From positions 42,430 through 84,281 of the forward strand of contig JBBDWV010000050.1 of the NCBI GenBank assembly GCA_040902655.1: a stretch of 41,852 bases of DNA. Reading direction: 5' to 3'. Every line of letters starts with the position of its first letter. The stretch's first letter is position 1. The DNA comes from Mycobacteriales bacterium. GTDB taxonomy: Bacteria > Actinomycetota > Actinomycetes > Mycobacteriales > SCTD01. This document shows positions 2,671 to 18,471 of this stretch, one piece after another. Under the pieces are notes generated by a model. The model ran no database searches and was not told the origin of the DNA. It saw only the letters and a list, made by a program, of their open reading frames with translations. The translations under genes were made by a program, and so were the position numbers.

Positions 2671-3534
2671 TCAGCCGGCCGGCACCAGGTCCAGCAGCGT
2701 CGCCTCCGGACGGCAGCAGAACCGGACCGGCAGGTACGGCGAGGAGCCCAGCCCGGCGCTGACGTGCAGCCAGCCACCCTCGCCGCGGGTGAGCCCCCGC
2801 GCCCGCCACCGCTGCAGGTCGCAGTTGGTCACCAGCGCACCCGCACCGGGCAGCCGCAGCTGGCCGCCGTGACTGTGCCCGGCGAGGATCAGCGCGTGGC
2901 CGTCCCGGGCGTAGGACCGGAGCAGGGCCCGCTGCGGTGTGTGCGTGATGCCGAGCCCGAAGCCGCCGACCGGGCCGGCCACCAGCCCGTAGCGGTCGCG
3001 GCGCAGATGTGCGTCGTCGGTGCCGGTGAGCACGACCGGCCGCCCGCACACCTGCAGCGTCACCCGCCGGTGCGTGAGGTCGGTCCAGCCGACTTCCTCC
3101 AGGAGCGCCGCGGCCCGCGACCAGGGCAGGTCGGCGCTGCGCCGGCGAGGCGGGCCGCCGCGCAGGTAGCCCAGTGGCGAGGGGAGGACCGGTGTGAAGT
3201 AGTCATTGTTGCCGGGCACGAAGACGCCGGGCGATCCCTGAGCCGTCAGTGCGGCGAAGGTGTCCGTCAGCAGGGGGATCGCAGCGGCGGAGGAGACGTG
3301 GTCGCCGGTCGAGACGATCAGGTCCGGTTCGTGGCGGGCCAGCTGTCGCACCCAGTTCGCGCGCCGGGTGTGCCGGGCCAGCAGGTGCAGGTCGGAGACG
3401 TGCAGCAGGCGCAGCGGGGCCCACCCGGGCGGCAGCACGGGCACCGTCACCCGCCGCAGGACCGGCAGGTGCGGCTCGACGAAGGGCCAGGCCAGCCCCA
3501 CCGCGGCGAGAGCGGCGAGGGGGCGGAGGCGCAC
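2671..3534 (-). CDS. Calcineurin-like metallophosphoesterase (YkuE/Rv3683-like)
   Basis: A 287-residue protein. A hydrophobic N-terminus (about residues 5-20) probably anchors it to the membrane. The two-metal phosphoesterase motifs appear in order: Asp-Leu-His (SDLHLL, about 48), Gly-Asp (STGDH, about 77), Gly-Asn-Asn-Asp (PGNND, about 108) and Gly-His-Ser-His-Gly-Gly (about 220). The family hydrolyses phosphomonoesters or diesters; some members act on lipid-linked or UDP-sugar substrates at the membrane. Linkage to the penicillin-binding protein gene, also seen in mycobacteria, hints at a cell-wall role. Start is a GTG at 3534, 6 nt after a TAGGGT box. Confidence 0.88.
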
Positions 3535-3540
3535 CTGGCC

Positions 3541-3546
3541 ACCCTA
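3541..3546 (-). promoter_or_regulatory. -10 box (TAGGGT) of leaderless metallophosphoesterase gene
   Basis: Minus-strand TAGGGT is followed by GGCCAG and the GTG at 3534, so the transcript likely begins at the start codon. It mirrors the TAGGGT serving the divergent yqeY gene 13 bp away. Confidence 0.55.
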
Positions 3547-3559
3547 GGCGCCGGCCGCG

Positions 3560-3565
3560 TAGGGT
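3560..3565 (+). promoter_or_regulatory. -10 box (TAGGGT) of leaderless yqeY gene
   Basis: Plus-strand TAGGGT ends 8 nt before the ATG at 3574. There is no Shine-Dalgarno sequence, which suggests a leaderless mRNA. Confidence 0.55.
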
Positions 3566-3573
3566 CGGATCTC

Positions 3574-4029
3574 ATGGGCGAGCTCAAGGATCGGCTGCAG
3601 CAGGATCTCACCGCCTCGATGAAGGCTCGGAACGAGCTGCACACCGCCACGCTGCGCATGGTGCTCACCGCGATCGGCAACGAGGAGGTCGCCGGCAGGT
3701 CGGCCCGCGTGCTGTCGGCCGACGAGGAGCTCACCGTGCTCGCGCGCGAGGCCAAGAAGCGGCGGGAGGCGGCCGAGGCGTTCCGCTCCGGCGGGGCCGA
3801 CGAGCGGGCCGAGCGGGAGCTGGCCGAGGAGCAGGTGCTGGCCGAGTATCTGCCGGCCCAGTTGTCCGACGACGAGCTGGTGGCCGTGGTCGACGAGGCA
3901 GTCCTGCAGATCGGTGCGAGCGGCCCGCAGGCCATGGGTGCGGTCATGAAGGTCGTCGGCCCGAAGGTCGCGGGGAGGGCCGAGGGCGGCCGGGTCGCCG
4001 CGGCTGTGCGGGCGGCGCTCGCGAGCTGA
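3574..4029 (+). CDS. yqeY: GatB/YqeY domain protein
   Basis: A 151-residue cytoplasmic protein that fits the YqeY family over its full length. It has an N-terminal helical part (KDRLQQDLTASMKARN...LRMVLTAIGNEE), a central AKKRREAAEAFRSGG motif, and a C-terminal Gln-Ala-Met-Gly...Val-Met-Lys region ending in GRAEGGRVAAAVRAAL. YqeY shares the tRNA-binding tail domain of GatB amidotransferase. A role in tRNA-dependent amidation is suspected, but its own reaction is not established. The start was chosen at the first residue of the family alignment and by the -10 box spacing. It is convergent with the PBP gene, 17 bp away. Confidence 0.9.
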   Translation: MGELKDRLQQDLTASMKARNELHTATLRMVLTAIGNEEVAGRSARVLSADEELTVLAREAKKRREAAEAFRSGGADERAERELAEEQVLAEYLPAQLSDDELVAVVDEAVLQIGASGPQAMGAVMKVVGPKVAGRAEGGRVAAAVRAALAS

Positions 4030-4040
4030 CCGCGGTCAGC
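4025..4040. terminator. Small palindrome between convergent yqeY and PBP genes
   Basis: GCTGACCGCGGTCAGC is a perfect 16-nt palindrome overlapping the yqeY stop. It can form a 6-bp stem with a CGCG loop. It may help end transcription from both sides, but the stem is short and has no U-tract. Confidence 0.35.
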
Positions 4041-4046
4041 CGCCGG

Positions 4047-6446
4047 TCAGCCGTTACCCCTGCCGTTGCCCCTGCCGTTGCCGGGAGGATCCGCACCCGG
4101 GGCGTCGGCCGGCTCACCACCGGCCGGCCGCTGCTCCGGCGGGGGAGCGGGAGCCGGCTCGACGACCGCTTCCCGGCCGTTCGAGGTGAAGATCGTGACC
4201 GTCCGGCCGGCCTGCACGGTGCTCCCGGCGCGCGGAGAGGTGTAGGCCACCGCGCCGCGCCGGACCGGCGCCGCATTGACCCGGCCGCCGTCGCGGATGC
4301 CGAAGCCCGCTTCGGTCAACGTCCGGACCGCGACGTCGTACGGCTGCCCACGCACGTCGGGCACCTCCAGCTGCTGGCCGGCCACGACGTCGCTGTCGGC
4401 GCCGGCGAACCGGCCGACAGGGACACCCTCGAGCGCGCCGCTCATGGCCTGCCTCCAGATCGCCGCGGGCAGCGTCCCGCCGTAGACCTGCGGGTAGTAC
4501 CGGCCGTTGATCCGTACCCGCTGCATGTTCTCCGGCTGTGGCTTGCCCACCCACACCGTCGTCGCGAGTTCCGGCGTGTAGCCGGCGAACCACGCGGCGC
4601 GTGAGCCGTTCGTGCTGCCGGTCTTGCCGGCGGCTGCGCGGCCGATCGAGGCGCCCTTGCCGGTGCCCGACTCGACGACGCCGCGCAGGACGTCGGTGAC
4701 GGTGTCGGCGATGCCCTGCTCGATGACCTGCTTGCAGGGCGAGTCGGTCAGCAGGATCGGCCGGCCCCGGTTGTCGAGCACCTCGGTCACGGCGCGTGGC
4801 GGGCAGTAGAGCCCGCGGGCGGCGAAGGTGGCGTAGGCGCCGGCCATCGCCAGCGGGCTGACGTCGTCGACGCCGAGGGTGAAGGCTCCGCCGCGCAGCA
4901 GCGGCTCGGTGGGCTCTCCGTCCTTGAACTGCTTGAGGCCCAGCGACTCGGCGATCGCGGCCGGCGGCTCGACGCCGGTGCGCTCCGCCAGCTGCACGTA
5001 GAAGGTGTTGACGGAGTTCCAGGTGCCGCTGCGCAGGTCGTAGGTGCCCGCTTGGGAGTCCCCGGCGTTGTTGAGCGTGTAGGGCTCGATGCCGTCCCTG
5101 GTGTAGTTCAGGAAGACGTCGGAGGTGTACTTGTTCGGCGAGAAGAAGCTCAGGGACAACGGTATGCCCTGCTGCAGCGCTGCGGTCAGGACGAACGGCT
5201 TGAACGTCGAGCCGGCCTGCATGCCGCTCGAGCCGCCGATCGCCAGGTTGACCTTGGTGTGCCCGGGCTTCTTCTCCTCACTGAAGAACCGGTTGACCGC
5301 CATCGCCTTGATGTCGCCGGTCCCCGGCTCGACGCTGTTGACGGCGGTGGCAGCCTGGTAGGGGTCCTCGCGCGGCACCTTCTCGTCGGCCGCCCGCTGT
5401 GCCGCCTGCTGCACCACCGGGTCGAGCGTCGTCTTGATGGTCAGGCCGCCGGCGAGCAGGCGCTCCTGGCGCTCCTGACGGGTGCGGCCGAGCGCGGGGC
5501 TCTCCTCCAGGATCCGGCGCACGTAGTCGCAGAAGAACGGCGCGGCCACGGCGGGGTTCTCGCAGCCGCTGCCCACCGGGCTGATCTTGAACTTCGGCTT
5601 CACGACCGTGCCCTCGGCCCGCTCGATCTCGGTGATGAACCCCTCGAGCGCCATCCGGCGCAGCACCAGGTTGCGCCGGTCGAGCAGCCGCTGCATCTGT
5701 TGCGGGTCCTGCCGGGCCCTGACCGGGTCGAAGCGGCCGGGACTCTGCACGATGCCGGCCAGCAGCGCACCCTCGGTGAGATCGAGGTCCTTGGCCGGCT
5801 TGCCGAAGTAGAAGGTGGCCGCCGTCCCGATGCCGTAGACGCCGTTGCCGAAGTAGGCGATGTTCAGGTAGCGCTCGAGAATCTCGTCCTTGCTGAACTC
5901 CTTCTCGATGGCGAGCGCGTAGCGCGCCTCCTTGAGCTTGCGGTCCAGGGTGACCTCCCGGGCGGCGTCCTGCCCCGCCTTGTCGTCCGCGGCCTGCAGG
6001 AGGGCATTCTTGACGTACTGCTGGGTCAGCGTCGACCCGCCCTGGCTGACCCCGCCGGCCTGCGCGTTCTCGATCGCGGCGCGCAGGGTCCCCTTGTAGT
6101 CCACGCCGTTGTGGGCGTAGAAGCGCGAGTCCTCGACGGCGATGAACGCCTTGCGGGTCAGGTCGGGGATGTAGCGCAGTTCGGCGAGGACGCGGTTCTC
6201 GCGGTAGAGGATCGCCAGCAGCGACCCGTCCGAGGCCAGGATCTTGCTGCGCTGCGCCAGCGGGGTGATCTGGAAGTCCTCCGGCAGGACGAGGAACTCG
6301 TCGGCTCCCGCCTTGGCGACCAGGCCGAGCCCGCCGATCACCGGGAAGGCCGCGCCGGCCAGGAGCAGGCCCGTCAGCGCGCTGATCAGCAGGGCGTACA
6401 CGAGCCGGACCGGCGCAGGCGCGGGTGGTCGGGAGGGGCGGGACAC
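4047..6446 (-). CDS. ponA2: Bifunctional class A penicillin-binding protein with PASTA domain
   Basis: A 799-residue peptidoglycan synthase. One transmembrane helix spans about 14-40. The GT51 glycosyltransferase domain (about 65-265) has EDSRFYAHNGVD with catalytic Glu105, and GGSTLTQQYVKN. The transpeptidase domain (about 365-650) has all three motifs: Ser413-Thr-Phe-Lys416, Ser478-Val-Asn480 and Lys608-Thr-Gly610. One PASTA domain (about 691-757) is followed by a Pro/Gly/Asn-rich tail ending in GNGR repeats. It polymerises and cross-links lipid II outside the membrane. PASTA plus the whiB4/ATPase neighbourhood matches mycobacterial PonA2. Start GTG at 6446 is 6 nt after a TATCCT box. Confidence 0.95.
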   Translation of the reverse strand: MSRPSRPPAPAPVRLVYALLISALTGLLLAGAAFPVIGGLGLVAKAGADEFLVLPEDFQITPLAQRSKILASDGSLLAILYRENRVLAELRYIPDLTRKAFIAVEDSRFYAHNGVDYKGTLRAAIENAQAGGVSQGGSTLTQQYVKNALLQAADDKAGQDAAREVTLDRKLKEARYALAIEKEFSKDEILERYLNIAYFGNGVYGIGTAATFYFGKPAKDLDLTEGALLAGIVQSPGRFDPVRARQDPQQMQRLLDRRNLVLRRMALEGFITEIERAEGTVVKPKFKISPVGSGCENPAVAAPFFCDYVRRILEESPALGRTRQERQERLLAGGLTIKTTLDPVVQQAAQRAADEKVPREDPYQAATAVNSVEPGTGDIKAMAVNRFFSEEKKPGHTKVNLAIGGSSGMQAGSTFKPFVLTAALQQGIPLSLSFFSPNKYTSDVFLNYTRDGIEPYTLNNAGDSQAGTYDLRSGTWNSVNTFYVQLAERTGVEPPAAIAESLGLKQFKDGEPTEPLLRGGAFTLGVDDVSPLAMAGAYATFAARGLYCPPRAVTEVLDNRGRPILLTDSPCKQVIEQGIADTVTDVLRGVVESGTGKGASIGRAAAGKTGSTNGSRAAWFAGYTPELATTVWVGKPQPENMQRVRINGRYYPQVYGGTLPAAIWRQAMSGALEGVPVGRFAGADSDVVAGQQLEVPDVRGQPYDVAVRTLTEAGFGIRDGGRVNAAPVRRGAVAYTSPRAGSTVQAGRTVTIFTSNGREAVVEPAPAPPPEQRPAGGEPADAPGADPPGNGRGNGRGNG

Positions 6447-10231: not shown

Positions 10232-11056
10232 GTGCCGGCCGGCAGCCCACCACCGGAGCTGTTCGAGCGCGCGCGGGCGATGAAGCGCGGCGAGCTCGCC
10301 GTCCCGCCGACCCGGGACGCAGCGACCGTGGCGCTGCTGCGCGACGCCTCCGGCGGGCCCGAGGTGTACCTGCTGCGCCGTGTACGGGCGATGGCGTTCG
10401 CCGGTGGAATGCACGTCTTCCCCGGTGGGGCGGTCGACCCGGCGGACGCACACGCGACCGTGGCCTGGTGCGGCCCGCCGGCGAGGGAGTTCGCCGCCGC
10501 CTTCGGGTGCGGGGAGCCGCTGGCCCGCGCGCTCGTCTGCGCCGCCGTACGCGAGACCTTCGAGGAGGCGGGGGTGCTGCTGGCCGGAGCCTCCGCCTCG
10601 GAGCTGCTGGCCGATGTCAGCACCGACGAGTGGGAGGCCGAGCGGGGGGCCCTCGAGGGGCGTGCACAGTCGCTGTCGGAGCTGCTGGCGCGGCGCGGTC
10701 TGGTCCTGCGTGCCGACCTGCTCCGGCCGCTCGCGCACTGGATCACCCCCGAGGCCGAGCCCAAGCGCTTCGACACCCGTTTCTTCGTCGCCCGCATGCC
10801 GGAGGGGCAGGTGTGCCGGGAGGTCGGCGGTGAGGCCGACCGGCGGCTCTGGGTGCGGCCGCAGGAGGCGCTGGACCGTGGGCTGGGCCTGCTGCCGCCG
10901 ACCGCGGCGGCGCTGGCGGACCTGGCCGACCACGCCGACGTGGAGGCGGCGCTCACGGCCCCCCGCACGATCGGGCCGGTGCTGCCGAGGCTCGTGGTGG
11001 GGGAGGACGACGAGGTGGCCTTCCTGCTGCCGGGTGACGCCGGCTACCCGGTCTAG
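10232..11056 (+). CDS. Nudix hydrolase with expanded Nudix box
   Basis: A 274-residue Nudix protein. FPGGAVDPAD supplies the start of the box and AAVRETFEEAGVLL its catalytic REUxEExGU helix. About 35 residues lie between them instead of about 7. Insertions at this place are known in the NUDT19-like branch, whose members hydrolyse CoA esters or other nucleotide diphosphates. The region 180-240 (HWITPEAEPKRFDTRFFVARMPEG) is also typical of that branch. The GTG at 10232 follows the RidA stop by 2 bp. The stop overlaps the start of the MBL gene by 1 bp. Substrate is unknown. Confidence 0.87.
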   Translation: MPAGSPPPELFERARAMKRGELAVPPTRDAATVALLRDASGGPEVYLLRRVRAMAFAGGMHVFPGGAVDPADAHATVAWCGPPAREFAAAFGCGEPLARALVCAAVRETFEEAGVLLAGASASELLADVSTDEWEAERGALEGRAQSLSELLARRGLVLRADLLRPLAHWITPEAEPKRFDTRFFVARMPEGQVCREVGGEADRRLWVRPQEALDRGLGLLPPTAAALADLADHADVEAALTAPRTIGPVLPRLVVGEDDEVAFLLPGDAGYPV

Positions 11057-11817
11057 TGCTGCGCCCGGTCACGGCCACCGCCGGTGTCCTGCTCGCGCCG
11101 AACCCCGGTCCGATGACGCTGGAGGGCACCAACACCTGGGTGCTGCGCGATCCCGCGTCGCCGTCCTGCGTCGTCATCGATCCCGGTCCGCTGCACGAGC
11201 AGCACCTCGCCGACGTCGCGGCCTGCGGACCGGTCGTGGTGGTCCTGCTCACGCACGGCCACGCCGACCACAGCGAGGGCGCGCGGCGGCTGTCCGAGCT
11301 GACCGGGGCGCCGGTGCGGGCACTCGACCCGGCGCACCGGCTGGGGGACGAGGGGCTGGGCGGGGGCGACGTCGTGGCCGCGGCAGGCCTGGAGCTGCGG
11401 GTGCTGGCGACGCCCGGCCACACGGCGGACTCGCTGTCGTTCCTGCTGGCGTGGGCGGGGGACGACACCGCCGTGCTGACCGGCGACACCGTCCTCGGCC
11501 GCGGGAGCACCGTGGTCGCCCACCCCGACGGCGTCCTGGCCGACTACCTGTCCTCACTGCGCCGGCTCCGGGAGCTGGGCGAGCTGACCGTCCTGCCCGG
11601 CCACGGCCCGGAGCTGCCCAGCGCCGGGACCGCCGCCGAGCGATACCTCGCGCACCGCGAGGCGCGGCTGGACCAGGTGCGTGCGGCCCTCGAGGCGGGC
11701 GCCACGACTGCGCAGCAGGTGGTCCGGACGGTCTATGCCGATGTGGACCGGGTGCTGTGGCCGGCCGCCGAGCTGTCGGTGCGGGCGCAGCTCACCTACC
11801 TGCGTGGCAGCCCGTGA
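11056..11817 (+). CDS. Metallo-beta-lactamase-fold hydrolase (Rv3677c-like)
   Basis: A 253-residue MBL-fold enzyme. The metal motif is His67-Gly-His69-Ala-Asp71-His72 (LLTHGHADHS), with further ligands in TPGHTADS (about 135), TGDT (about 162) and LPGHG (about 185). The N-terminal NPGPMTLEGTNTW stretch and the C-terminal helical part match the LACTB2-like hydrolase group, some of which are endoribonucleases and others thioesterases. There is no signal peptide, so it is not a secreted beta-lactamase. It is coupled to its neighbours at both ends: GTG overlaps TAG by 1 nt, and the stop overlaps the cyclase start by 4 nt. Confidence 0.9.
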   Translation: MLRPVTATAGVLLAPNPGPMTLEGTNTWVLRDPASPSCVVIDPGPLHEQHLADVAACGPVVVVLLTHGHADHSEGARRLSELTGAPVRALDPAHRLGDEGLGGGDVVAAAGLELRVLATPGHTADSLSFLLAWAGDDTAVLTGDTVLGRGSTVVAHPDGVLADYLSSLRRLRELGELTVLPGHGPELPSAGTAAERYLAHREARLDQVRAALEAGATTAQQVVRTVYADVDRVLWPAAELSVRAQLTYLRGSP

Positions 11818-14800
11818 CCTGCCCGGTCTGCGGGACGCCGACGGTGCCGGGGGCGCGGTTCTGCTTCGCCTGCGGGGCCGCCCTGCCGGCGGGCGCCGGC
11901 AGCGAGTCCGAGGCCGAGCGCCGCCTGGTGACCGTGCTGTTCGGGGACCTGTCGGATTTCACCAGCTGGTCCGAGGACCTCGACCCCGAGCGCGTCGGCG
12001 TCGTCACCGACCGGGTGCTCGCGACGCTGGCCGGTGCCGTCGCCGACTTCGGCGGGCACGTCGACAAGCTCACCGGTGACGGGCTGATGGCGGTCTTCGG
12101 CGCGCCGACCGCCCACGAGGACGACGCGGAGCGCGCGGTGCGCGCCGCGGCCCGCATGCAGAGTGCGGTGCGCCGGGTGGTCGAGGAGGAGAGCGGCGGC
12201 GGGCGGCGGCTCGGCCTACGCGTCGGGCTCAACACCGGCATCGTGCTCGCCGGCATCCAGGCCCACCTCAGCTACACCGTCGTCGGTGACACCGTCAACA
12301 CCGCCTCCCGGCTGTCCGACGTGGCCGGCATCGGTGCCGTCTTCGCCGGGCGGGACACGGCACTGGCCACCATGGCGATCGCCTCGTGGCGTGCGCTGCC
12401 CCCGCTGCGGCTGAAGGGCAAGCGCGAGTTGGTCCCGGCGTACGAACTGGTCGGGCTGCGCCCGGCCTCGGCCAGCCGGCTCGGGCTCGGTGACGAGGCG
12501 CCGATCATCGGCCGGAACGCCGAGTCCGGCCTGCTCATCGGACGCCTGCTCGAGGTGGGGGACCGCGCCGTTCCGCGCGGCGTCCTGGTCACCGGCGACG
12601 CCGGCGTCGGCAAGACCCGGCTCGCCCAGGAGCTGTCCCGCTTCGCCGGCGAGTTGCCGGGAGCGCGGGTGCTGTGGGGGCGCTGCGCGCCGTACGGCGA
12701 AGGACGCGACCTGGCGGCCGTGGCCGAGATGGTGCGTACCGCCTGTGCCATCGGCGAGGCCGACGGCATCGAGGCCGCCCGCGAGCGGGTGGCGCGGACC
12801 GTGGCCAGGCTGGAGCGTCCGGACCGCGCCGGCGCGGTCGCCCGCACGCTGACCGAACGCCTGGTGGCACTGCTCGGACTGGAGGTCGAGACCTCTGGGG
12901 GGGACCCGGACGCGACGGTTCCGGAGCCCTTGGTCGGCGGGGAGCAGGTGCGGCAGGCGGTGGCGACCTTGTTCACCGCGCTCGCCGCCGAGGGTCTGCT
13001 GGTCCTCGTCGTCGACGACCTGCACTGGGCCACGCCGGTGATGCTCAAAGGTCTGGTGGACGTGGTCGCGCAGACCCGTGGAGGCGTGCTGCTGCTCGGC
13101 GTCGGCCGCCCGGACATGCTCGAGCTCCCCACCCAGGACCTGCCCGGCGCGTGGTGGGAGCGGCTGCCCGAGGTTGAGATCCTGCCGCTGCTGCCGCTGG
13201 AGGAGAGCGCCACCGAGCGGCTGCTGGGCGCCTATCTCGGCAGCCCCGTCGGCGAGGTGGACGCCTCCGTCCGCACGGCCCTGCTGTCCCGCGCGCAGGG
13301 CAACCCGTTCTTCCTGGCCGAGTTGCTCCACCTGCTCGTCGACCGCGGTGCCCTCGTCCGCGAGGGCGAGCGGTGGGTCGTGGTCGGCGAGATTCCCGAC
13401 GGGGTGCTGCCGGCCGGCGTGCGGGCGGTGCTCGCGGCCCGTATCGACGGGTTGGACGGCTCGGCCAAGGGCGTTCTGCGCGACGCCGCGGTGCTCGGCC
13501 TGCGGGTGACCGTTCCGGGCCTGGTCGCGGTGGGTCGGGCCAGCGGCCACGGTGACCCCGACGTCGTGCAGGCGGCGGTGTGCACCCTGGTGGAACGCCG
13601 CCTGCTGGAGGCCGACAGCGACGAGGGCAGCTATCACTTCGGGCACACGCTGGTACGTGACGTCGCCTACGCCGGGCTGGCCAAGGCCGACCGGGCGCGC
13701 CGGCACGCGGCTGCGGCGCAGTTCGCCGAGGCGGCGCAGGCGCTCGGCCCCGGGCTGGCCGGCTCGGTGGAGGCCGATGCGGCGGCGGCGAGCCAGGGCG
13801 AGCGGGCGGTGCGTCTGGCTGTCGAGATGGGCCTGCCGCCGGACGATCCCGCCTGGGCCGCGCGCGACACGGCCTTCGCCGCTCTGGTCCGGCTCGGCCG
13901 TGGCGCGCTCGGCCGCGACGACAGCGCCCAGGCCGAGCAGTTGTTCCGGCGGGCGTTGGCGTTGGACTCCCCGGTGTACGGGGGGGTGCTCCCGCCGTCG
14001 CTGGTGGTGCCGGTGCGGGTCGGCCACGCCCAGGCCCTGGCCTCGCTGCACCGGCTCGATGAGGCCGAGCAGCAACTGGCGCCCGCGCTGGACGCCTTCG
14101 AGCAGGGGGTCCGGGCCGCCGCGCTGGTCGTGCTCGGCGAGGTCCGCCGCAAGCGCGGCCACGTGATGCAGGCCCGGCAGGCCTTCGTGTCGGCGCTCGC
14201 GGCGGCGGCGTCAGCGGGCATCGACCGGCTCTCGGGCGAGGCGCTACGCCAGCTCGGCCTGCTCGACTACTTCGACGGCCGGCTGCGCGACGCGGAGGAG
14301 CGTTTCCGTCAGGCGCACGCCCTGGCCGTCCAGGTCGACGACCCCCGCGGCGCCGGGTGGGCGCTGCAGCACCTGGCCTGGAGCGCGACGACGCGTGGCG
14401 ACTACGCGCTCGCGGACAGCACGCTCGAGCGGGCGACGGCGGTCTTTTCCCGCCTCGAGGACAGCGGCGGGCTGTCCTGGCTGGCCGGCACCGAGGGCTT
14501 CGTCAGGCTGCTGCAGGGCCGGCTGTCCGAGGCGCGCGCGCTGGTCCGGTCGGTGCTGCCGCTCGGTGAGGCGATCGGCGAGCGCTGGGGCGTCGCGGCG
14601 CTGCTCACCATCGACGCACTCGCTGCCGCCGAGCTCGGTGACGTCGGGGTGGCCGGCGTGCAGGCCGAGCGGGCCCGGGTCACCTTCGGCGAACTGGGGG
14701 ATGCCTGGGGTGAATCGCTGGCGGCGACGGCCCAGGGCGCCGCCGCCCGTGGTGCGGACGACCCGGAGCGTGCGGTCGCGTTGCTGGGCGAGGCGGTGGA

Positions 14801-15341
14801 GCTGTCCGGGCGCAGCCGCTACCCCGTGACCGGGAGCCTGGCGCTGGTCGCGCTGGGCTACGCCCATCTGGACCAGGGCGACCTCGAGGGGGCGGAGGCG
14901 GCGGCCTGGCGTGCGGCGGCCCTGCTCGCCGGGCTGGACCTCGACGCGTCCGCACCGCTCGGGGCGCAGGTCCTGCTGGCGCAGGTGCTGCGGTCCCGCG
15001 GCCGGCTCGATGAGGCGCTGGCCGAGATCGACGCAGCCCTGTCCGTACCGGCCCGTCCCGCCCTGCTGTTCCCCCGCCGGCAGGCGCTCGCCCACCGGGC
15101 CGGCGTGCTGCTGCAGCTGGGCCGGGTGGACGAGGCGCTCAGCACCGCCCGTACGGCCGTCCAGACGCCGACCGAGGATGTCCGGGCCCGTGTGCTGGCG
15201 CTGCGCGCGCTCGGGTCCGCGCTGCGGGCGTCGGGAGACCCGCAGGCGGGGCGGGCCGCGCTCGAGCAGGCGTTGGAGGCTGCGCGGTCGACCGGTCAGC
15301 GCTCGGAGATCGCCGCCACGGAGCGCCTGCTGGCCTCCTGA
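11814..15341 (+). CDS. Zinc-ribbon / class III adenylate cyclase / NTPase / TPR protein
   Basis: A 1175-residue multidomain protein. (1) Zinc ribbon: Cys3, Cys6, Cys17, Cys20. (2) Class III cyclase domain, about 36-215. It keeps both metal aspartates (Asp45 in FGDLSDF, Asp89 in TGDG), the adenine-specifying Lys85, Thr155 in the second purine-specifying place, and the transition-state Asn162 and Arg166. The Lys/Thr pair fits class IIIc adenylate cyclases. (3) AAA-type NTPase with Walker A Gly261-Thr268 (GDAGVGKT) and Walker B LLVLVVDDLHWA (about 395-406). (4) About 600 residues of helical TPR-like repeats. It should make cAMP in the cytoplasm under control of a signal read by the NTPase/TPR part. 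It ends about 590 bp from the convergent crp gene. GTG start coupled to the MBL stop. Confidence 0.93.
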   Translation: MTCPVCGTPTVPGARFCFACGAALPAGAGSESEAERRLVTVLFGDLSDFTSWSEDLDPERVGVVTDRVLATLAGAVADFGGHVDKLTGDGLMAVFGAPTAHEDDAERAVRAAARMQSAVRRVVEEESGGGRRLGLRVGLNTGIVLAGIQAHLSYTVVGDTVNTASRLSDVAGIGAVFAGRDTALATMAIASWRALPPLRLKGKRELVPAYELVGLRPASASRLGLGDEAPIIGRNAESGLLIGRLLEVGDRAVPRGVLVTGDAGVGKTRLAQELSRFAGELPGARVLWGRCAPYGEGRDLAAVAEMVRTACAIGEADGIEAARERVARTVARLERPDRAGAVARTLTERLVALLGLEVETSGGDPDATVPEPLVGGEQVRQAVATLFTALAAEGLLVLVVDDLHWATPVMLKGLVDVVAQTRGGVLLLGVGRPDMLELPTQDLPGAWWERLPEVEILPLLPLEESATERLLGAYLGSPVGEVDASVRTALLSRAQGNPFFLAELLHLLVDRGALVREGERWVVVGEIPDGVLPAGVRAVLAARIDGLDGSAKGVLRDAAVLGLRVTVPGLVAVGRASGHGDPDVVQAAVCTLVERRLLEADSDEGSYHFGHTLVRDVAYAGLAKADRARRHAAAAQFAEAAQALGPGLAGSVEADAAAASQGERAVRLAVEMGLPPDDPAWAARDTAFAALVRLGRGALGRDDSAQAEQLFRRALALDSPVYGGVLPPSLVVPVRVGHAQALASLHRLDEAEQQLAPALDAFEQGVRAAALVVLGEVRRKRGHVMQARQAFVSALAAAASAGIDRLSGEALRQLGLLDYFDGRLRDAEERFRQAHALAVQVDDPRGAGWALQHLAWSATTRGDYALADSTLERATAVFSRLEDSGGLSWLAGTEGFVRLLQGRLSEARALVRSVLPLGEAIGERWGVAALLTIDALAAAELGDVGVAGVQAERARVTFGELGDAWGESLAATAQGAAARGADDPERAVALLGEAVELSGRSRYPVTGSLALVALGYAHLDQGDLEGAEAAAWRAAALLAGLDLDASAPLGAQVLLAQVLRSRGRLDEALAEIDAALSVPARPALLFPRRQALAHRAGVLLQLGRVDEALSTARTAVQTPTEDVRARVLALRALGSALRASGDPQAGRAALEQALEAARSTGQRSEIAATERLLAS

Positions 15342-15927: not shown

Positions 15928-16647
15928 TCAGCGGGCGCGGCGGCTCAGCCGGTCCGCGTCGAGAATCGTCACGGCGCGCGAGTCGACCCGCATCCAGCCG
16001 CGTGCGGCGAAGTCGGCCAACGCCTTGTTGACCGTCTCGCGGGAGGCGCCGACCAGCTGGGCCAGCTCCTCCTGGGTCAGGTCGTGGTGCACGCGTACCC
16101 CGTCGCCCTCCGCGGTGCCGAAGCGCTCGGCCAGGCCGAGCAGCGCCTTGGCGACGCGGCCGGGCACGTCGGTGAAGATCAGGTCGGCCAGCGCGTCGTT
16201 GGTCCGGCGCAGCCGGCGGGCCAGCACCCGCAGCAGCTGCTCGGCGATCTCGGGCCGGTCGCTGATCCACGGTCGCAGCGACGCGTGCGCCAGCGAGGCG
16301 AGCCGGGAGTCGGTGAGGACGGTGGCGGTCGCGGTGCGCGGACCGGGGTCGAACAGCGACAGCTCGCCGAACATGTCCGACGGCCCCATCACCGACAGCA
16401 TGTTCTCGCGCCCGTCGGCGGCGCGCCGGCCGACCTTCACCTTGCCGGACAGCACGATGTAGAGGGTGTCCCCCTGCTCGCCCTCGGTGAAGACGGTCTC
16501 GCCGCGCGAGTAGTCGCCGTACTCCAGCGCGGACGACAGCGCCTCGCGGGCCTCCGGGGCCACGCCCTGGAACAGGCCCGCAGCGGCCAGCACGCCGTCG
16601 CCGGGCTCATCCGTGTTGTCCTGCATCGCGCTGCTCAAGGCCGTCAT
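15928..16647 (-). CDS. crp: cAMP receptor protein, Crp/Fnr family
   Basis: A 239-residue transcription factor orthologous to mycobacterial Rv3676 and corynebacterial GlxR by sequence and context. The N-terminal cyclic-nucleotide domain has [18 protein letters not shown] with Gly94-Glu95-Leu96 and Arg104-Thr105, the phosphate and ribose contacts of cAMP. A dimer helix follows (about 128-155). The C-terminal winged helix has recognition segment [21 protein letters not shown] (about 190-210). It binds TGTGA-N6-TCACA sites; candidates lie upstream of acs, DUF485-actP and a whiB gene in this window. Start ATG at 16647 has GGAG 6 nt upstream; an alternative Met is at 16626. It is probably co-transcribed with the two genes upstream. 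Confidence 0.96.
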
Positions 16648-16707: not shown

Positions 16708-16956
16708 CTAGCGTCCGCGTCCCGGCAGCAGGCCCGACAGCCGGCGTCGCCGCCAGTAGCGCTCGAGCGCGGGCGCGAACCCCTCGCTGACGTAGGTCTC
16801 CACCTCTTCGGGCCGGGCGGAATCAAGGAAGGACTGCAGCTGCTCGCTCACCGAGTCGACCCGCAGGGGCCGCTCGACCCGCTCCATCATGAGCATGAGC
16901 ACGAGCAGCAGCAACGGCAACAGCAACGCGACGACGAGCAGGGCCACGTCGTCCAT
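16708..16956 (-). CDS. Small single-pass membrane protein between rsiG-like gene and crp
   Basis: An 82-residue protein. Residues 4-24 are one strongly hydrophobic helix (VALLVVALLLPLLLLVLMLMM). The rest is cytoplasmic or exposed and ends in a basic tail (YWRRRRLSGLLPGRGR). A negatively charged middle (EQLQSFLDSARPEEVETYVSEGF) may form a helical hairpin. I recognise no family. ATG 16956 is preferred to 16974 because GAGGGGAG precedes it at good spacing. It is 39 bp after the RsiG-like gene and 60 bp before crp on the same strand, so it is likely in one operon with them. Confidence 0.7.
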   Translation of the reverse strand: MDDVALLVVALLLPLLLLVLMLMMERVERPLRVDSVSEQLQSFLDSARPEEVETYVSEGFAPALERYWRRRRLSGLLPGRGR

Positions 16957-16995: not shown

Positions 16996-17604
16996 TCAGG
17001 CAGTGGTGGAGCGTCCCGGCTCGACCGGCAGCGCCGACAGACACAGGGTCGGCTCCTCGCGGTAGCGCGCGATCAGCTCGACGGTCGCCTGGCCGATTCG
17101 CCGGTGCAGCGCGACCCGGTACGTCGACAGCTGGGTCTCCGCGATCCGTAGGTCGTGTCCGAACGCGGCCTGGCCCTCGACGTCGTCGTCGGCCACCCGT
17201 CGGTCCCACAGCTCACCGAGGCTCGGCAGCGGCGGAATGTCGTCCGCGGGCAGCACCTCCACCAGCGCTTGCCGGCCGGCACCGATCCGCGCGGAGGTGA
17301 GCAGCGGGCGCAGCCGGTCCTGGTCGAACTCCCGGGCGCCGGAGCCGGCCTGCAGCACGTCGAGCCGGGCCTGCAGGATCCGGCGCCAGTACGACACCCT
17401 GCCCTCCTCGGCCGTCAGCGCCCGGCGGTACTCGCGCAGGGCGTCGATGGACAGGTGGGCGTAGTCCGCGTTGCGGACCGGCGCCCGGCGCGCCGCGCCC
17501 TTGCGCCGCGCCGGCGCCGGCCGGCCGGCCAGCGCGACGCCGCCGCTGCCGGAAGTGCCGCCGGCCGGACCCTGCTGGACGGGTCGTCCGGTCGGTGCGG
17601 TCAT
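16996..17604 (-). CDS. rsiG: RsiG-like protein with c-di-GMP-binding signature
   Basis: A 202-residue protein. Residues 1-45 are disordered, basic and Gly/Pro-rich. The helix at about 52-87 contains Glu67-Ser71-Arg74-Gln78-Asp82, which exactly matches E-x3-S-x2-R-x3-Q-x3-D, the c-di-GMP-binding motif of the Streptomyces anti-sigma factor RsiG (partner of sigma WhiG). A second helix (about 148-182) has Glu156-Ser160-Arg163 in the same spacing, but His167 and Gly171 replace Gln and Asp. In Streptomyces both helices carry the motif; in Rubrobacter one copy works in a homodimer. It probably sequesters a WhiG/FliA-like sigma factor when c-di-GMP is high. ATG 17604 follows a strong GAGGGAGG. First gene of the likely crp operon. 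Confidence 0.78.
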   Translation of the reverse strand: MTAPTGRPVQQGPAGGTSGSGGVALAGRPAPARRKGAARRAPVRNADYAHLSIDALREYRRALTAEEGRVSYWRRILQARLDVLQAGSGAREFDQDRLRPLLTSARIGAGRQALVEVLPADDIPPLPSLGELWDRRVADDDVEGQAAFGHDLRIAETQLSTYRVALHRRIGQATVELIARYREEPTLCLSALPVEPGRSTTA

Positions 17605-17735
17605 CGGATGCCTCCCTCTGCGGTCACGCTCTGTGATCGACCCTGGTTGGCTCGTCACCCTGCGGGAGCACCTTGAGTGGGATCACCCGGGTGGGTCATC
17701 GCCACGACGTCAGGCGCCGGCAACGGCCCGCCACG

Positions 17736-17748: not shown

Positions 17749-18471
17749 ATGGCTCGCCCCGTTCCGCCGACCCGGACGGCGCTCGTCCGCCGGGCCCGGC
17801 GGATCGCCCGGGAGCTGGCCGTTCTGCACCCGGATGCGCACTGTGAACTGGATTTCACGACGCCGCTCGAGCTCACCGTGGCCACCATCCTGTCCGCCCA
17901 GTGCACCGACCGGCGGGTCAACGAGGTCACGCCCGAGCTGTTTCGCCGCTACCGCAGCGCGGCGGACTACGCCGGCGCCGACCGGGTGGAGCTGGAGAGC
18001 CTGATCCGGCCGACCGGCTTCTTCCGCAACAAGACCAGCAGCCTGATCGGGCTGGGCGCGGCACTGGTCGACCAGCACGGCGGGCAGGTGCCGGCCCGGC
18101 TGGAGGACCTCGTCCGGCTGCCCGGCATCGGCCGCAAGACCGCGAACGTCGTGCTGGGCAACGCCTTCGGCGTGCCGGGGCTGACCGTCGACACGCACTT
18201 CGGCCGGCTCGTCCGGCGCTTCCGCTGGGTCGAGCTGGACGATCCGGTCAAGATCGAGGTGGTGGTGGCCGGGCTGCTCCCGAGGCCCGAGTGGACGATG
18301 TTCAGCCACCGGGTGATCTTTCACGGCCGGCGGGTCTGCCACGCCCGCAGGCCGGCCTGCGGGGCGTGCGGGCTGGCGGCCCTGTGCCCGTCGTACGGCA
18401 CCGGCCCCACCGATCCGGAGGTCGCGGCGAAGCTGGTCAAGACGCCGGACGCGGTGGCGGTGTCGCTGTGA
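17749..18471 (+). CDS. nth: Endonuclease III
   Basis: A 240-residue DNA glycosylase/AP lyase of base excision repair that removes oxidised pyrimidines. The helix-hairpin-helix [14 protein letters not shown] carries catalytic Lys130. Asp148 (VDTHF) activates it. Cys197, Cys204, Cys207 and Cys213 (C-x6-C-x2-C-x5-C) bind the [4Fe-4S] cluster. All key residues are present at family length. The stop overlaps the GTG of the following CoA-type Nudix gene. In mycobacteria a membrane thioredoxin-like gene lies between nth and that Nudix gene; it is absent here. Confidence 0.97.

Follow-up and report, generated by a model that had tools for sequence, protein, structure and literature searches.

The window analyzed here, a stretch of DNA of 41,852 nucleotides, encodes a second member of the RsiG family of anti-sigma proteins in a genome that also carries a canonical RsiG. 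Judging from its Pfam match, its place in a gene tree and the translation of its open reading frame, this 202-residue protein (positions 16996–17604, minus strand; the sequence-only reading of this DNA gave no strand) is a conserved cousin of RsiG that is undescribed in the literature searched (open-licence subset), and we refer to it as RsiG2. RsiG restrains a sigma factor, WhiG, with the help of the bacterial signal c-di-GMP, and the two have been described as the only sigma/anti-sigma pair known as a target of c-di-GMP (PMC8325347). In the likeliest reading, RsiG2 would be another anti-sigma of WhiG that depends on c-di-GMP and differs from RsiG in a lower affinity or an altered selectivity; we regard the chances of this as evenly balanced, because we infer both binding steps.

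RsiG2 belongs to the RsiG family

The earlier proposal that this protein is RsiG-like is upheld by profile comparison. It matches the Pfam family RsiG (PF22802) with an E-value of 8.7e-15 and a score of 54.6 bits (gathering cut-off 27), and the same model matches all of the aligned relatives (68/68), so that homology to RsiG has more than the motif behind it. The C-terminal half of RsiG2 lies outside the match to the Pfam model, and the NCBIfam profiles gave a single weak, irrelevant match. In a phmmer search against the PDB, the four best matches are the Rubrobacter RsiGs and the Streptomyces RsiG (labelled AmfC, 6pfj), with E-values of 0.002–0.005.

Both motifs are as read before. Motif 1 (residues 67–82, encoded at 17359–17406 on the minus strand) has the pattern E-x3-S-x2-R-x3-Q-x3-D, with E67, S71, R74, Q78 and D82 all present in the translation, and when the protein was shuffled 20,000 times this exact pattern never arose. 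Motif 2 (residues 156–171; 17092–17139, minus strand) consists of E156, S160, R163, H167 and G171, that is, E-x3-S-x2-R-x3-H-x3-G with the Asp lost. A single-chain AlphaFold2 prediction, made from a 68-row alignment, has a mean pLDDT of 74 and contains the two motif-bearing long helices that the sequence-only reading had envisaged, at residues 53–86 (motif 1) and 142–183 (motif 2), mostly near or above 90; residue 171 falls within the second of them. A Foldseek search of 350,542 PDB chains placed RsiG (6pfv) first, with a probability of 0.95 and an E-value of 0.21, which is indecisive for a two-helix protein, and the VIA Z of 8.7 over 131 residues is no better than that of unrelated helical bundles.

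RsiG2 shares with canonical twin-motif RsiGs the first motif, E-x3-S-x2-R-x3-[Q/H]-x3-D on helix 1, and differs from them in the second, where G171 replaces the Asp on the last long helix. It differs from single-motif homodimeric RsiGs as well, since a second motif helix is present and keeps 4/5 of the residues.

Paralogy and distribution

The contigs of the assembly that holds the window (3.56 Mb, 62 contigs, 98% complete) were searched with profiles, and a second RsiG protein of 188 residues was found on contig C1. PF22802 matches it twice, once per motif helix, and both of its motifs are intact (EVDLSYLRRMIQGRLD and EQTISGKRRAVQAVMD), which identifies it, on sequence criteria, as the canonical twin-motif RsiG; the window protein is therefore a paralog, hence the name used here. 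In a gene tree of 104 proteins, built with a quick method and SH-aLRT support values, the 76 RsiG2 rows and the 28 canonical rows are split by a branch with a support of 100, and RsiG2 does not group with canonical RsiG; support for the branches inside RsiG2 is uneven, and the tree covers RsiG2 and canonical RsiG but no single-motif forms.

RsiG2 occurs in 24/24 sampled genomes of its own family; another three genomes of the order also have it (27/61 in all), and canonical RsiG accompanies it in 25 of these 27 relatives, both exceptions being incomplete MAGs. A scan of GTDB species yielded 80 named rsiG2 loci, mostly from Frankiales/Frankiaceae MAGs, Acidothermus, Nanopelagicales and freshwater actinobacteria; some loci of the branch are from Nocardioides and Sporichthya. 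Judging from these matches, the RsiG2 branch is widespread in Actinomycetes. One genome (G021) carries two rsiG2 loci (L027 and L036), both adjoining nth, which reflects either a duplication or mixed strains. A record titled Acidobacteria (L147) and two titled Bifidobacterium breve (L117 and L120) contain loci of actinobacterial type and look misbinned or misnamed.

A previous survey of 134 genomes reported one second RsiG copy, in Acidothermus cellulolyticus 11B (Schumacher et al., PMC8325347). An Acidothermus MAG in our set (L103) contains both canonical RsiG and RsiG2, and by analogy the second copy of strain 11B is probably the RsiG2 paralog. That report concerns a copy in one genome, and the paralog family, its locus and the missing Asp are undescribed there; nor did the literature searched (open-licence subset) hold a description of an RsiG paralog family, of the crp locus, of the branch linked to sigma and pilus genes or of the loss of Asp.

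Genomic context and a predicted BldD box

The divergent neighbor of rsiG2 that marks the conserved locus is nth, encoding endonuclease III (17749–18471, plus strand). On the other side, 3' of rsiG2, lie a gene for a small membrane protein (MERVERPLR..., 16708–16956, minus strand; no NCBIfam match) and one for a crp-type cAMP-receptor regulator (15928–16647, minus strand), which is found downstream of rsiG2 in most loci. The three genes probably form one operon with rsiG2 first, since the gaps between them in the window are only ~40 and ~60 bases. The gene adjoins nth and/or crp in 74/80 named loci, typically in the order nth <- -> rsiG2 -> small membrane protein -> crp; the six loci that have neither neighbor are those of Nocardioides/Sporichthya type and L147. 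Near crp, a long frame on the plus strand (10380–15341) combines a nucleotide-cyclase-like stretch (LVTVLFGDLSDFTSW...) with an ATPase/TPR-like regulator part, both named by eye, and its product is a possible local source of cAMP.

Just upstream of rsiG2, at 17624–17636, there is a match (TCACAGAGCGTGA on the minus strand) to the sequence 5'-TNAC-N5-GTNA-3' that is bound by BldD, another c-di-GMP receptor (PMC4151990). It is the sole match in the 41.9-kb window, for which 2.5 would be expected by chance, so that the count itself is uninformative. The conservation of the box says more: T[C/T]AC-N5-GT[A/G]A is present in 22/71 nth–rsiG2 intergenic regions, mostly of the Frankiales-type group, compared with 0.26 in shuffles (maximum 2), a contrast that overstates independence because many of the regions come from related genomes. 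The same pattern was found in 0/8 relatives that lack RsiG2, and no BldD box was found upstream of whiG in 58 loci. The box just ahead of the gene suggests that BldD, as a second c-di-GMP receptor, controls the transcription of rsiG2, and its conservation is among the observations that favor RsiG2 as a second c-di-GMP-dependent anti-sigma.

A locus of this kind raises the question of whether RsiG2 could be a c-di-GMP receptor with a non-sigma output, acting on Crp or on the small membrane protein and so connecting the c-di-GMP and cAMP pathways. Association with crp and nth, seen in 74/80 named loci, is far stronger than that with any sigma gene and spans genomes from the ~1 Mb of freshwater actinobacteria to 4.5 Mb. 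However, in the RsiG2-lacking relatives that were checked, nth and crp are also close, separated in most by the gene for the small membrane protein and by nothing RsiG-like, so that the linkage may be an inherited position.

Relatives that adjoin sigma genes argue for sigma binding. Five loci from Nocardioides and Sporichthya (L139, L140, L146, L148 and L150) form a clade with a support of 100 on the RsiG2 side of the tree, separate from that of the window genome, and their proteins have the motifs E-S-R-H-D and E-T-R-[H/F]-D, with both Asp residues kept; no other RsiG-type protein was found in the genomes of these members. In L139 and L147 the gene directly 3' of the RsiG-like gene, on the same strand, encodes a WhiG-like sigma; in G077, G080 and G081 such a gene is 12–19 kb away. 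In L140, L146, L148 and L150 type IV pilus genes (for PilT/PilB-like ATPases and PilM/N/O-like proteins, named from translations) surround the RsiG-like gene. For Rubrobacter, control of type IV pili by the RsiG/WhiG switch has been proposed (PMC8325347), and the pilus and sigma linkage of the Nocardioides-type members matches, by analogy, that arrangement. In L147, a GGDEF/EAL-like protein (2845–4314, recognized by eye) adjoins the RsiG-like/WhiG-like pair together with chemotaxis-type genes and is a possible local source of c-di-GMP for the switch. Weighing both sides, we consider an output through Crp or the membrane protein unlikely.

WhiG as the predicted partner

A WhiG-type sigma factor, which had been named as the thing to look for, is encoded in the same genome (NF004935 equivalog, 435 bits against a threshold of 343), along with a FliA-like sigma (L004) and a SigB/F-like sigma (L003). 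The genome also has 13 matches to the GGDEF domain, which indicates a capacity to make c-di-GMP. WhiG was detected at E <= 1e-40 in 21/27 RsiG2-bearing relatives, the six gaps being assemblies with an estimated completeness of 81–92%, and at E <= 1e-55 in 28/30 named RsiG2 genomes; the two without it (G064 and G084) are perhaps incomplete. Three residues of S. venezuelae WhiG, K57, G61 and R62, touch c-di-GMP (PMC8325347), and their equivalents are kept in nearly all WhiG copies that cover the stretch, the WhiG of the window genome having K, G and R.

Genomes with RsiG2 also have an unusually conserved WhiG. Identity to the WhiG of the window genome is 88% in G042, 83% in G028 and 82% in G035, the only three RsiG2-bearing genomes outside its own family in this matched comparison, compared with 56–62% in six order-mates that have RsiG and WhiG and lack RsiG2. 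Control proteins differ little between the two groups: nth identity is 71–75% with RsiG2 and 66–75% without, and canonical RsiG, where measured, 48–52% and 44–51%. Among twenty RsiG2-bearing genomes outside the family, pairwise WhiG identity averages 80%, with a minimum of 70%; there are exceptions (G071, G074, G078 and G083), in which RsiG2 coexists with a WhiG that is 48–65% identical. This conservation fits an extra constraint on WhiG, such as a second partner, and lineage could also account for it. A flagellar-type WhiG promoter (TAAA-N15-GCCGATAA) was not found in the window genome (G000) at 0–1 mismatch, despite a very conserved WhiG. One genome (G008) has two WhiG genes (L156 and L178), 95–97% identical to that of the window genome.

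RsiG2 could instead hold back a sigma other than WhiG, either the SigB/F-like L003 or the FliA-like L004, as a change of partner is possible after duplication and the genome does encode these other sigmas of related type. We rejected the FliA-like candidate on its distribution: no ortholog was found in the eight sampled congeners, all of which have RsiG2. From its translation, the FliA-like sigma lacks the K/G/R contacts to c-di-GMP as well. A partner other than WhiG is accordingly, in our estimate, improbable.

A predicted c-di-GMP site that lost one Asp

In the solved RsiG complexes each Asp recognizes a splayed outer guanine by its Watson–Crick edge and Arg recognizes a central one; the ribose is held by Glu and Ser, and Gln stacks on a base (PMC8325347). 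Conservation of these residues in RsiG2 was counted over 108 aligned rows, many of them near-duplicates between two collections. All but a few rows have E-S-R-[Q/H]-D as motif 1. In motif 2, E is present in 105 rows, S in 98 (T in 7), R in 108 and H in 104, and the last position is G in 32, D in 29, A in 28, S in 8, T in 4 and E in 4. Four of the five residues of motif 2 are kept, and the variation is confined to the Asp position. The second motif had been called decayed, a description that the alignment does not support: His at the fourth position is the rule in the RsiG2 branch, and the sole real departure is D to G. Many RsiGs have His in place of Gln in motif 1, on helix 1, where it is considered capable of the same stacking contact (Schumacher et al. 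2021, PMC8325347). No obvious relation between loss of the Asp and absence of canonical RsiG was found in the aligned rows and genomes.

In the mechanism that we propose for RsiG2 as a second anti-sigma, the two long helices would form an antiparallel coiled coil that offers a dimer of c-di-GMP to WhiG, with helix 1 contributing the full E-S-R-Q-D motif and helix 2 contributing E-S-R-H, with no Asp in the clade of the window genome. The missing Asp would leave one outer guanine without its Watson–Crick-edge contact and the rest of the site intact, making the site asymmetric and probably weaker or less selective. A one-Asp site is structurally credible because one Asp of the Rubrobacter complex already makes a long, weak contact, at 3.6 and 3.9 A, and the other does not (PMC8325347). 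Across the clade, the guanine-reading Asp of motif 2 has given way to Gly, Ala, Ser, Thr or Glu, which would also be compatible with a loss of c-di-GMP binding there; RsiG2 would then be an anti-sigma or scaffold that is constitutive or under some other control. Near-invariance of all five motif-1 residues and 4/5 of those in motif 2 would be unexpected if the ligand had been lost, and we find such a loss quite improbable.

The direction of the change can be read from the tree. Beyond the large Frankiales/Acidothermus-type group, nearly all lineages (Nanopelagicales-type, Nocardioides-type and others) have the Asp, and with canonical RsiG as the outgroup this argues that Asp is ancestral in RsiG2; parsimony requires six changes between Asp and not-Asp. 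On this phylogenetic evidence, the asymmetry of motif 2 is a later single-residue loss in the clade of the window genome and not a halfway stage. The sequence-only reading, seeing a full and a partial motif within one chain, had taken the protein for an intermediate form on the way from RsiGs with one motif to those with two, which has the direction wrong and next to no chance of being correct, since RsiG2 sits in a separate paralog branch (support 100) beside an intact twin-motif RsiG of the same genome and both Asp residues are retained in other lineages of that branch. The asymmetric site that it had also proposed stays plausible, as one full motif facing a motif 2 without Asp.

Relation to known RsiG proteins and implications

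One of the closest characterized counterparts is the RsiG of Streptomyces venezuelae, a twin-motif WhiG anti-sigma (PDB 6pfj, 6pfv). It belongs to the same Pfam family, has two motif-bearing long helices, a similar length and a C-terminal segment past the last long helix, and is the top PDB fold match, at 23–25% identity. RsiG2 differs from it in the missing Asp and in the His for Gln of motif 2, in a nearly invariant Trp within S-Y-W-R-R, in another linker (PPLP...LW), and in its paralogous branch and crp-adjoining locus. With the single-motif, homodimeric RsiG of Rubrobacter radiotolerans (PDB 7lq2, 7lq3, 7lq4) the motif-1 helix can be aligned residue by residue (phmmer E-value ~0.002), whereas RsiG2 has its second motif helix in the same chain, so that dimerization would not be needed.

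A broader scheme, which we offer as tentative and somewhat doubtful, would place WhiG under two c-di-GMP-dependent anti-sigmas that differ in affinity or selectivity, with the missing Asp tuning the second and the operon joining c-di-GMP (through the BldD box and RsiG2) to cAMP (through Crp). If RsiG2 does act as a second anti-sigma, an RsiG paralog conserved across many, mostly uncultured, actinobacteria would mean that two receivers for the switch are common, and that c-di-GMP may act on one and the same switch through a second brake. With its single changed residue, RsiG2 would also be a natural variant of the site for the c-di-GMP dimer in which to test how each guanine contact sets affinity.
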